From: an uncultured beta proteobacterium
Lineage (GTDB): Bacteria > Pseudomonadota > Gammaproteobacteria > Burkholderiales > Burkholderiaceae
DNA length: 64,000 nucleotides
Assembly (NCBI GenBank): GCA_903867305.1
Contig: CAIPQU010000045.1
Coordinates: 1 to 64,000 of the forward strand
Direction: 5' to 3'
Both the position numbers and the translations under genes were made by a program. This document shows, in pieces, positions 45,356 through 51,014 of the stretch. The notes beneath the pieces are model-generated. The model was given only the letters and a program-made list of their open reading frames with translations. It searched no databases and was not told the origin of the DNA. Position 1 is the stretch's first letter, and each line of letters opens with the position of its first letter.

Positions 45356-45799
45356 ATGAATCGTCATTTAGTAACAGAGAAAATCATCAATCATAAAGTT
45401 CTTAAAGGAATGAAATGGGCTGATATCGCAACCGCTATTGGTGAGTCAAAAGAATGGGTCACCGCAGCTTGTCTTGGGCAAATGACGTTCACTAAATCGC
45501 AAGCAGAAATTGCTGGAAAGTTATTTAACTTAACTGACGAAGAAATGGCTTGGCTACAAATTGTGCCTTACAAGGGCTCGCTGCCTACAGCCGTTCCTAC
45601 TGATCCATTAATCTATCGCTGGTATGAAATTGTGAGTGTCTATGGCACCACCATTAAAGAACTCATTCATGAAGAGTTCGGCGATGGCATTATGAGCGCT
45701 ATTGATTTTTCGATGGATATTACTCGTGAAGCAGATCCCAAAGGGGATCGTGTCAACGTCGTTCTTTCTGGGAAGTTCTTGCCCTATAAAACCTATTGA
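45356..45799 (+). CDS. cynS: Cyanate hydratase (cyanase)
   Basis: This enzyme decomposes cyanate with bicarbonate to ammonium and two CO2. It has 147 aa, forming a decamer in the family. The N-terminal helical DNA-binding-like domain precedes the catalytic domain. Arg88, Glu91 and Ser114 match the E. coli catalytic triad in spacing (Arg96, Glu99 and Ser122). An AAGGA ribosome site precedes the ATG, 14 bp after the ATPase gene. Its place at the end of the nitrate-type transporter operon suggests that the transporter also takes up cyanate. Confidence 0.95.
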   Translation: MNRHLVTEKIINHKVLKGMKWADIATAIGESKEWVTAACLGQMTFTKSQAEIAGKLFNLTDEEMAWLQIVPYKGSLPTAVPTDPLIYRWYEIVSVYGTTIKELIHEEFGDGIMSAIDFSMDITREADPKGDRVNVVLSGKFLPYKTY

Positions 45800-45837
45800 A
45801 ACAATGACCTAGCGATCCTTCTGCTTTCTGGAATACA

Positions 45838-45885
45838 CAGTCCATTAAAATAGATTATTCTTAGATAATCTATACCAATGGACTG
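45838..45885. repeat. 48-bp composite palindrome upstream of pirin
   Basis: Two nested perfect inverted repeats share one centre. The outer arms are CAGTCCATT and AATGGACTG (9 bp), and the inner arms are TAGATTAT and ATAATCTA (8 bp), with 4-nt linkers on both sides and a 6-nt centre. It ends 5 bp before the pirin ATG, where no Shine-Dalgarno is visible. It could be a double operator or an mRNA hairpin that sequesters translation initiation. There is no T-tract, so it is not a standard terminator for cynS. Confidence 0.8.
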
Positions 45886-45890
45886 TTATT

Positions 45891-46604
45891 ATGATTTATA
45901 AACGCTCAGCTTCTTCAAGGGGTTATGCCGATCATGGCTGGCTCAAGTCTTTCCATAGCTTTTCATTTGCTGATTATTACGATCCACAGTTTATGGGTTT
46001 TGGGCCACTGCGTGTGATTAATGAAGATTGGATTGCAGCTGGAAAAGGATTTGGCACACACGGCCATAAGGATATGGAAATTATTACCTATGTTCTTGAG
46101 GGGGAGCTCGCTCACAAAGATAATATGGGTAATGGTAAAGCGATCTACCCCCATGAAGTCCAAAGAATGAGTGCCGGTAAAGGAGTCATGCATAGCGAAT
46201 TTAATCACGCTGAAGGTCAAACAACCCATCTTTTACAAATTTGGATCCAACCAGATGTCATTGGCGTGCCTCCAAGTTACGAACAAACGATGTTTCCACC
46301 CGAAGAAAAACGTGGCAAATTACGCTTGGTAGCATCCCCCAATGGGGGCCAAAACTCAGTCACGATTCACTCCAATACCTATTTATATGCCGGCTTGTTA
46401 GATGGTACAGAAACCATTGAACAACCGTTAGCCGCCGACCGTATTGCATACCTCCATGTAGCCAAAGGAAAACTGGTTGTCAATGGCGAAGCGATTGAAG
46501 CTGGTGATGCGCTAATGATTGCACAAGAAAACTTGATCAATTTATCGAAAGGTCAAGATGCAGAAGTGCTCCTATTTGATTTACCGAAAGCGGCTCAAGC
46601 TTGA
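45891..46604 (+). CDS. Pirin-family protein
   Basis: This bicupin protein of the pirin family has 237 aa. The metal site of the N-terminal cupin is intact, with His57 and His59 (GTHGHKDMEI) and His101 and Glu103 (VMHSEFNH). Bacterial pirins have been linked to quercetinase-like activity, redox sensing and control of pyruvate metabolism. Which applies here cannot be read. Start ATG at 45891 immediately downstream of a 48-bp composite palindrome. The YgiD-like dioxygenase gene follows after 30 bp. Confidence 0.92.
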   Translation: MIYKRSASSRGYADHGWLKSFHSFSFADYYDPQFMGFGPLRVINEDWIAAGKGFGTHGHKDMEIITYVLEGELAHKDNMGNGKAIYPHEVQRMSAGKGVMHSEFNHAEGQTTHLLQIWIQPDVIGVPPSYEQTMFPPEEKRGKLRLVASPNGGQNSVTIHSNTYLYAGLLDGTETIEQPLAADRIAYLHVAKGKLVVNGEAIEAGDALMIAQENLINLSKGQDAEVLLFDLPKAAQA

Positions 46605-46634
46605 ATGGCCCCTAATTAATCAGGCTGGTTACCA

Positions 46635-47432
46635 ATGACAACAATGCCCGCATTATTTGTTGGTCATGGTAGCCCCATGTACGCCATCCAACCCAATGAA
46701 TATAATGAAGCGTGGGCAAGTGTGGCGAAAAAAATACCAAGGCCCTCAGCCATTCTGATGATTTCTGCTCATTGGTATACAAGAGGAACTTGGTTAACGG
46801 CGATGCAGGAGCCTAAGACGATTCATGACTTTGGAGGCTTTCCTCAGGCCTTGTTTGATATTCAGTACCCTGCTCCTGGATCTCCAGCTCTAGCCCAACA
46901 TGTCAAAGGAATCATCTCTTCTCAATTTGAAAATATCACCTTGGAAGAATCAGAATGGGGTCTCGATCATGGTGCTTGGTCGATTCTTAAATATATGTTC
47001 CCTAAGGCAGATATTCCAGTGATACAAATGAGTATTGATGCTACTCTAACTGGGGATCAACATGTTGCACTAGGGCGTAAATTACAGATTTTACGCGAGG
47101 AAAATATTCTCATCATTAGCAGTGGTAATGTAGTCCACAATCTACAACTCATTGCTTGGAAAAGTCATGTGCCAACGCCGTCTTGGGCACTCAATTTTAA
47201 TGATTTCTTCAAAACGCATTTAATCAATAATGATTTAGCACCACTCATCCATTGGCAATCAGCAGGATCTGACGCCCAGTTAGCTATTCCAACTCCAGAG
47301 CATTATTTACCAGCTCTTTACACCTTCGGCTTAAAAAAAGAATCCGAGTCTGCTCAGGTCATTACTGATGGAATCGAAATGTCTTCCATTAGCATGCTAA
47401 GCTTTGGTTATGGTCTACCCTCTACTCTTTAG
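46635..47432 (+). CDS. YgiD-like class III extradiol dioxygenase
   Basis: This 265-aa protein of the LigB-like superfamily is close to E. coli YgiD (4,5-DOPA extradiol dioxygenase). Visible motifs are FVGHGSPMYAI with the metal His near the N-terminus, MISAHWYT, WGLDHGAWSIL and SSGNVVHNL. Probably a cytoplasmic non-haem Fe or Zn enzyme acting on catechols. It follows pirin and precedes an M50 protease with an 11-bp gap, so the three genes may be co-transcribed. Confidence 0.87.
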   Translation: MTTMPALFVGHGSPMYAIQPNEYNEAWASVAKKIPRPSAILMISAHWYTRGTWLTAMQEPKTIHDFGGFPQALFDIQYPAPGSPALAQHVKGIISSQFENITLEESEWGLDHGAWSILKYMFPKADIPVIQMSIDATLTGDQHVALGRKLQILREENILIISSGNVVHNLQLIAWKSHVPTPSWALNFNDFFKTHLINNDLAPLIHWQSAGSDAQLAIPTPEHYLPALYTFGLKKESESAQVITDGIEMSSISMLSFGYGLPSTL

Positions 47433-49382: not shown

Positions 49383-51014
49383 CTACCAAGATGTAGCAGA
49401 AGCCCGCTTCCAATAGTCTCCTAAACCTTGGAAGTGCTGATTAAGATGTTTTTCGGCGTCTGGAGAGATTAACTCGTTAGGCTCAAGCTGAAATAAGTTC
49501 TTACCCAATGGAGTAGCAACTCCACTCTCAGTTCTTCTAATCACCACATTAGCATCTAATTGAGAGGTGTGGGAAAAACCGGTTGCCGAGAGCAACTCCC
49601 CCAAAGCTACCAAGGTATTTTGATGGTAATGAAAGACGCGATGCGCTTTATCTGCAGGATCTAATGCGCGTTGGCGCATCGCATCTTGCGTTGCAACCCC
49701 AGTAGGGCATAGGTCGGTATGGCAAGTCCGAGATTGGATACAACCGACTGCAAACATAAAGCCCCGTGCCGAATTACACCAATCAGCCCCAATCGCACAG
49801 GCCCTCACAATATCAAAGGCTGAAATGATTTTTCCTGCTACGCCTAATTTAATCTGATCTCTTAATCCAGCGCCTATAAGAGACATATGAACCAGTCGTA
49901 AGGCATCTCGCATGGGAGTCCCCATATGATCAACAAACTCAACAGGAGCAGCTCCAGTACCGCCCTCACTACCATCAATGACAATAAAATCAGGTGTGAT
50001 TTTAGTTGCTAACATTGCTTTTACGATAGCAAACCACTCATGTGGTTTACCAATACAAAGCTTAAATCCAATAGGCTTGCCCCCTGAGAGCTCTCTCAAC
50101 TGAACAATGAATTGCATCAACTCAAGAGGTGTCGAGAAGGCAGAATGTCCAGCAGGGGAAACGCAGTCAATACCCATAGGGATGCCACGTGTCCTGGCAA
50201 TCTCTGGCGTAATCTTGGCCGCAGGCAAAACCCCACCATGACCAGGTTTGGCGCCTTGCGAGATCTTGATCTCGATCATTTTAATTTGCGGTTCACTAGC
50301 AACTAAAGCAAATTTTTCTGGATCAAATTGTCCGTCAACTGTTCGACATCCAAAATAACCTGAGCCTAATTCCCAAATCAAATCACCACCATAACGACGG
50401 TGATAATCAGAGACTGAACCTTCACCTGTGTCATGAGCAAAGCCCCCCATCTTGGCCCCCTTGTTTAAGGCCATAATTGCATTGGCAGATAAGGAACCAA
50501 AACTCATCGCGGAAATATTAAATACAGAAATGGAATAGGGCTTGGCACATTGGGGCCCTCCCACTTCAACACGTAAATCCTCAGGTTTGAGATGTTCACT
50601 CGGATTAATGGTGTGCATCAACCACTCAGTTCCACTACTGTAAAGATTTTCAATGGTCCCTAAAGGTCTTTTATCTGAATCCCCTTTTGCACGTTGATAA
50701 ACTAATGCGCGTTCATTTCTGGAGAATGGTAATTGCTCCGTATCAGACTCTAATAAGTATTGCCGAATTTCTGGACGAAATTTTTCAAATAAAAATCGTA
50801 AATGTCCTGAAACTGGATAGTTACGCAAAATAGCATGCTTTTTTTGGTTAACATCTATCCATCCAACAAAACTCAGAAAAATAAAGAAAGCTCCCAAAAA
50901 GTAGGCTTGAATCCTAGCTACTCCTGACTCGATACCCCAAACATAGCTAATGGCCAAAAAAATGCACAGTACCCATGGAATATACCTAGAGTAACTGCGC
51001 AAAGTTTTGAACAT
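49383..51014 (-). CDS. Membrane-anchored FMN-binding glutamate-synthase-like protein
   Basis: This 543-aa protein is related to the synthase domain of glutamate synthase large subunit. The start is taken at the ATG at 51014 (the track ORF begins at an upstream TTG). Two N-terminal membrane helices (about 10-50) precede the FMN barrel with KISQGAKPGHGGVLPAAKIT, DGSEGGTGAAP and the cysteine motif SRTCHTDLCPTGVATQ for a [3Fe-4S] cluster. It lacks the glutamine amidotransferase domain, so it is not a full GltB. Electron acceptor role and product are unknown. Confidence 0.85.
   Translation of the reverse strand: MFKTLRSYSRYIPWVLCIFLAISYVWGIESGVARIQAYFLGAFFIFLSFVGWIDVNQKKHAILRNYPVSGHLRFLFEKFRPEIRQYLLESDTEQLPFSRNERALVYQRAKGDSDKRPLGTIENLYSSGTEWLMHTINPSEHLKPEDLRVEVGGPQCAKPYSISVFNISAMSFGSLSANAIMALNKGAKMGGFAHDTGEGSVSDYHRRYGGDLIWELGSGYFGCRTVDGQFDPEKFALVASEPQIKMIEIKISQGAKPGHGGVLPAAKITPEIARTRGIPMGIDCVSPAGHSAFSTPLELMQFIVQLRELSGGKPIGFKLCIGKPHEWFAIVKAMLATKITPDFIVIDGSEGGTGAAPVEFVDHMGTPMRDALRLVHMSLIGAGLRDQIKLGVAGKIISAFDIVRACAIGADWCNSARGFMFAVGCIQSRTCHTDLCPTGVATQDAMRQRALDPADKAHRVFHYHQNTLVALGELLSATGFSHTSQLDANVVIRRTESGVATPLGKNLFQLEPNELISPDAEKHLNQHFQGLGDYWKRASATSW

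Follow-up and report, generated by a model that had tools for sequence, protein, structure and literature searches.

A covarying hairpin at the pirin start codon of a Polynucleobacter genome, a possible insulator against readthrough from cynS

Known start-site hairpins

In IS10/Tn10, readthrough mRNA folds back over the start region and inhibits translation of the transposase, whereas mRNA begun at the internal promoter forms no such fold. A comparable arrangement is described in phage T4, where a stem at the start site of gene e (lysozyme), soc, 49 and I-TevI blocks translation of long transcripts that began upstream (PMC3014915, PMC2988022). In hairpins of the T4 type, the DNA that encodes the 5′ strand also holds a promoter, and RNA begun at it lacks this strand and is translated (PMC3014915, PMC2988022). 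In gene e and I-TevI it is the early readthrough RNA that folds over the start, and established late promoters bypass the fold (PMC3014915, PMC2988022). The very stable hairpin of Aeromonas phage 25 seg43, listed in the review without a test of its effect, lies directly upstream of the ribosome site and not over it (PMC2988022).

The LysR-type regulator YhaJ of E. coli has a regulon of yhaK, yhhW and ygiD, with a 16-bp LysR-type promoter box (PMC5031710). A Polynucleobacter transcriptome gives the pirin gene Pnuc_0487 a change of +3.4 fold; the passages found on this gene say nothing of its leader (PMC7522526).

Comparison with the pirin locus

The window, i.e., the whole stretch of 64,000 nt analyzed here, contains a palindrome next to a pirin start codon. 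The gene order, all on the + strand, is transporter permease, ABC ATPase, cynS, palindrome, pirin and LigB/YgiD-like dioxygenase. The features are as follows.

45356-45799, + strand: cynS, cyanate hydratase; upstream of pirin and co-directional with it, no terminator before pirin
45837-45846, + strand: outer left arm ACAGTCCATT (10 bp), from the inverted repeat and RNA fold; covaries with 45877-45886 in seven genomes
45846-45863, + strand: 18-bp box TAAAATAGATTATTCTTA across left inner arm and loop, candidate promoter/operator element of pirin; at pirin in all seven genomes searched
45850-45858, + strand: inner left arm ATAGATTAT (9 bp), from sequence and RNA fold
45859-45864, + strand: central 6 nt TCTTAG, tetraloop and closing pair, from the RNA fold
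45865-45873, + strand: inner right arm ATAATCTAT (9 bp), from sequence and RNA fold
45877-45886, + strand: outer right arm AATGGACTGT (10 bp), from the inverted repeat, RNA fold and covariation
45891-46604, + strand: pirin/quercetinase-like gene (PF02678 and PF17954), no Shine-Dalgarno
46635-47432, + strand: LigB/YgiD-like extradiol dioxygenase, partner gene on the downstream side of pirin

Like T4 gene e and I-TevI, the window has a stable predicted start-site stem on upstream-initiated RNA (-22 kcal/mol, with 17.8 kcal/mol needed to open the start region). In the T4 hairpins, however, the Shine-Dalgarno sequence and/or the AUG is inside the helix, whereas the AUG of the window lies just 3′ of the stem and has no Shine-Dalgarno; for this reason the hairpin may work like the T4 type but is not a member of it. 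Moreover, the late promoters of gene e and I-TevI are established, whereas the internal start in the window is one that we infer, and the gene concerned is a bacterial chromosomal metabolic gene. The hairpin resembles that of seg43 in being very stable and placed directly upstream of the ribosome site, but seg43 has a ribosome binding site right after the stem and the window has no Shine-Dalgarno (PMC2988022). Targets of the kinds found in the YhaJ regulon, a pirin and a LigB/YgiD dioxygenase, stand side by side in the window, but the TCA-N7-TGA repeat described for YhaJ does not appear in the box of the window. The proposed limitation of the fold-back to readthrough mRNA is shared with IS10/Tn10, which differs in that a mobile-element gene protects itself with arms derived from the terminal region of the element.

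Results

The palindrome reads ACAGTCCATT-AAA-ATAGATTAT-TCTTAG-ATAATCTAT-ACC-AATGGACTGT (45837-45886), with linkers of 3 nt each (AAA and ACC) between outer and inner arms, and ends 4 bp before the pirin ATG (45891). An earlier, sequence-only reading correctly recognized the site and its two nested inverted repeats with a shared centre, as well as the lack of a visible Shine-Dalgarno: the sequence just before the ATG, TGGACTGTTATT, contains no clear one. Its measurements need correction, as the arms are 10 and 9 bp long instead of 9 and 8, the linkers 3 nt instead of 4, the limits those given above instead of 45838-45885 with 5 bp to the ATG, and the cynS-pirin gap 91 bp (45800-45890) instead of 92.

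The same reading judged the symmetry to be far beyond chance, and this holds. Around the 6-nt centre, 19 of 22 symmetric positions match, a value not reached when the whole 64-kb window was shuffled 200 times with dinucleotides preserved (best 18; mean count at >=19, 0.00). The window contains no longer inverted repeat within 60 nt, and as RNA the palindrome folds at -22.3 kcal/mol (z = -6.7), with 0/200 shuffles equally stable. It is, with practical certainty, a real feature. The 3.14-Mb genome holds a single copy, which rules out a repeat element or mobile repeat (REP/MITE). The second-longest inverted repeat of the window (49628-49692, 19 nt, 84%) lies in a glutamate-synthase-like ORF on the minus strand.

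Several other identities were considered. The palindrome is not an intrinsic terminator: it has no T run, its tail being TATTATGATTT, and no terminator-like site was found. A search for sigma-70-like promoters gave no match inside the hairpin, and -10/-35 elements placed by hand gave several equally poor options, none of which is claimed. Rfam returned a sub-threshold snoRNA match only, which sets aside a known RNA family. A fourU or ROSE thermosensor is likewise set aside, there being no masked Shine-Dalgarno and no Rfam match above threshold.

The closest relatives of the window pirin protein include, as named isolates, P. rarus and P. kasalickyi; the window genome is for this reason assigned to Polynucleobacter (GTDB sense). 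The pirin gene was traced in named genome contigs as well as in 186 genomes from the genus. An equally placed hairpin is present in six other genomes (G206, G174, G193, G156, G191 and, weakly, G203) with 79-92% pirin identity, and more distant members, with 73-79% identity, have none at the pirin start. Thus, absence from close relatives, named in the sequence-only reading as evidence against its proposal, is found in the more distant of these two ranges, but in the closer one the hairpin is kept. Across the seven genomes (the window and the six others) the MFE z of the hairpin ranges from -3.5 to -8, and its position is fixed at 0-4 nt from the pirin ATG.

The neighborhood of pirin varies within this set. 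In G203, which has the weakest hairpin and the lowest opening cost of the hairpin-bearing genomes (9.2 kcal/mol), cynS was not found and the upstream neighbor is a divergent DUF2798 gene. This weak stem without cynS agrees with a role in readthrough from cynS but is a single case, which could reflect relaxed selection or coincidence. In G193 the hairpin is strong; the contig stops a short way upstream, and the MAG yielded no cynS.

An alignment of the seven related sequences, a small sample, was examined for covariation. For the whole structure, 88.3% of cells are paired vs 26-43% after sliding the register by 1-3 columns, a lenient control because the structure was read off the same seven sequences; in the outer stem alone, 87% of cells are paired. 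Five of 13 outer pairs have changed on both sides (e.g., A-U/G-C at columns 10-61 and 4-67, G-C/A-U at 13-58). None of 500 shuffles matched the score of 0.330 for covariation; the count of double-change pairs, taken alone, was not above shuffles (157/500). Imperfect pairs on the + strand comprise 11 G.U (G.T in DNA) vs 2 A.C (six vs two by distinct column types); the A.C pairs both come from the degenerate G203. In 6/7 genomes the + strand gives a better fold than the complement, the exception being the window, in which the arms are near-perfect. When arms were paired across species, those of G193 and G156 paired best with their own partner and poorly with most others, a preference not shown by G206, G174 and G203.

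Because pairing is kept amid sequence drift, and because the mismatches are mostly sense-strand G.U, the outer arms are best read as a sense-strand RNA hairpin, and selection on the outer stem as an RNA structure is, judging from this comparison, very probable. The sequence-only reading had proposed to distinguish compensatory change from strict conservation in relatives; in the outer arms the change is compensatory, which favors RNA. Its choice between an mRNA structure and a double operator comes out for the former in the outer arms, and what takes the place of the double operator is a single conserved box in the left inner arm.

This box, TAAAATAGNYTATNCTTA, occurs at pirin in 7/7 genomes searched and is the sole site in 6/7, G000 having one further site with one mismatch. 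A box-like sequence is also present upstream of pirin in hairpin-less relatives, with cynS adjacent or not, at varying distance from the ATG; these relatives keep the left box only and not the dyad. Since its sequence is conserved at pirin even where there is no hairpin, the left box looks like a promoter or operator element of pirin. The search for sigma-70-like promoters in the window cynS-pirin gap gave no match, so that it is the conserved box that suggests an internal promoter.

The stem begins only 37 nt after the cynS stop. In three relatives with cynS located elsewhere, a stem (AGGCCTAT..ATAGGCCTTTTTT) followed by a T run lies ~20 nt past the stop and is, by its sequence, a normal terminator. 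The terminator search of the window cynS-pirin gap gave no match; with the terminator of these relatives missing, readthrough from cynS into pirin is plausible. Three other relatives (L063, L064 and L065) have cynS and pirin adjacent but no hairpin at the ATG. They carry another stem, of the AGTACATC..GATGTACT type and without a T run, shortly past the cynS stop (L063 2825-2859, L064 2848-2884, L065 2850-2882). The L063 record (CALPOM020000014.1) is titled Thermoflexus hugenholtzii and contains Polynucleobacter-like cynS-pirin genes; it is probably a mislabelled MAG.

Ribosome access was expressed as opening cost, the energy needed to clear positions -18 to +15 around the start codon, i.e., the ribosome docking site. 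The value for pirin, 17.8 kcal/mol, is the highest among 45 window ORFs. It is 14.8-22.3 kcal/mol in five hairpin relatives and 3.0-7.3 kcal/mol in hairpin-less relatives. In the RNA fold the AUG itself is unpaired, 4 nt 3′ of the stem. When the RNA is made to start at 45845 or later, the opening cost of the window pirin drops to 4-7.5 kcal/mol; thus, the block would affect only RNA derived from upstream. The LigB/YgiD-like gene ranks second in the window with 17.6 kcal/mol, and ahead of it (46605-46634) there is a near-palindrome, CCTAATTAATCAGG, not common to relatives.

Discussion

From the structure, its covariation, the box and the missing terminator, we infer a sequence of readthrough, internal start and translational block. 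The hairpin would form solely on upstream transcripts, that is, on RNA running on from the transporter-cynS operon, after which no intrinsic terminator was found. The end of its 3′ arm, 0-4 nt from the SD-less pirin AUG, would fall within the ribosome docking site, so that pirin initiation on readthrough mRNA would be poor. The separate promoter/operator box would lie within the hairpin DNA, in its 5′ half, and mRNA begun at the box would lack the 5′ outer arm, form no hairpin and be translated with a short leader or none. In this way the hairpin would uncouple pirin from cyanate/nitrogen-driven transcription. That it acts as a readthrough insulator, with pirin initiation blocked on cynS readthrough mRNA, has in our opinion about an even chance of being correct.

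The most serious rival, because the three relatives with adjacent cynS and pirin carry a stem near the cynS stop instead of one at the ATG, is a stabilizer of the 3′ end of the cynS-operon mRNA. Transcription would terminate downstream, for example by Rho, exonucleases would trim the message back to the stem, and the nearness of the pirin ATG would be incidental. Another mechanism for the cynS 3′ end is indeed plausible, since no intrinsic terminator follows cynS in the window, and selection for pairing on the sense strand is compatible with it. We nevertheless regard a stabilizer as unlikely: the place of the stem is fixed with respect to the ATG, the stem contains pirin's own conserved box, and where cynS is elsewhere, as in three relatives, it has the normal terminator about 20 nt after its stop. 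The other explanations are less likely than the stabilizer. A strong covarying stem adjoining a start codon without a Shine-Dalgarno might also be a cis-acting translational switch, responding to protein, sRNA or temperature, or an RNase-processing site, with transcription always coming from upstream of the hairpin. This is improbable, given that neither a conserved loop nor a ligand-like core exists besides the box, that Rfam has nothing above threshold, that a Shine-Dalgarno to mask is missing, and that the 37 nt between the cynS stop and the stem hold no promoter match. The thermosensor that the sequence-only reading gave as an example is not supported: pirin lacks a Shine-Dalgarno that could be masked, and the stem, at -16 to -26 kcal/mol, is very stable.

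Two concentric dyads could also be an operator in DNA for a dimeric or tetrameric regulator, a reading to which the sequence conservation of the inner-left box, its T-N11-A frame as in LysR-type sites, and the control of pirin (yhhW, yhaK) and ygiD genes by the LysR-type YhaJ in E. coli (PMC5031710) lend some appeal. An operator of this kind would nevertheless be very improbable: the outer arms differ in sequence yet remain paired, the G.U-biased mismatches are strand-specific, and of the two half-sites of the dyad it is the left box alone that is conserved in relatives, including those without a hairpin. A search of seven genus genomes with the pirin-adjacent LysR of another burkholderialean (L070) gave no match at E<=1e-40, which, as it was run without a positive control, is a weak negative against a YhaJ-like LysR as regulator. 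Least credible of all, and to be given hardly any weight, is a palindrome that arose by chance or by mutation and has no function. Template switching between quasi-palindromes can perfect imperfect arms, and the window copy has no G.U pairs in its two arms; six other genomes, however, stay paired with different arm sequences and sense-strand G.U, and the window shuffles (0/200) speak against chance.

If the preferred reading, an insulator against readthrough, is true, the start-site hairpin of phages and transposons, formed by upstream transcripts alone, would serve as a translational insulator between ordinary chromosomal genes, at a place without a terminator and at a start codon without a Shine-Dalgarno. 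We tentatively propose, as a possibility somewhat doubtful at present, a "readthrough lock" of ~50 bp, in which an own-promoter box would give short-leader or leaderless mRNA, and a stem, maintained through compensatory changes at places where no terminator follows the upstream gene, would silence the SD-less start on polycistronic mRNA. Should the arrangement prove general, locks of this type would be a substitute for intergenic terminators. Their comparative signature would be a hairpin abutting an SD-less start, a conserved box in its 5′ arm and a co-directional upstream gene without a terminator.

Box-like elements are also found elsewhere. The one-mismatch copy of the box in G000, AAAAATAGTTTATCCTTA (L166 about 1502-1519; G000 C30:54733-54750), is flanked by genes for an MFS transporter and a 3-hydroxyisobutyrate-dehydrogenase-like protein, and by its sequence it is a possible second target of the same putative regulator. 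Many other Polynucleobacter (L014, L016, L021, L025-L028, L030, L031 and others) have a conserved element like AAAGCTAATGATAATGTGCTTATT before pirin, which partly resembles the reverse complement of the box of the window clade and also a Fur-like half-site.
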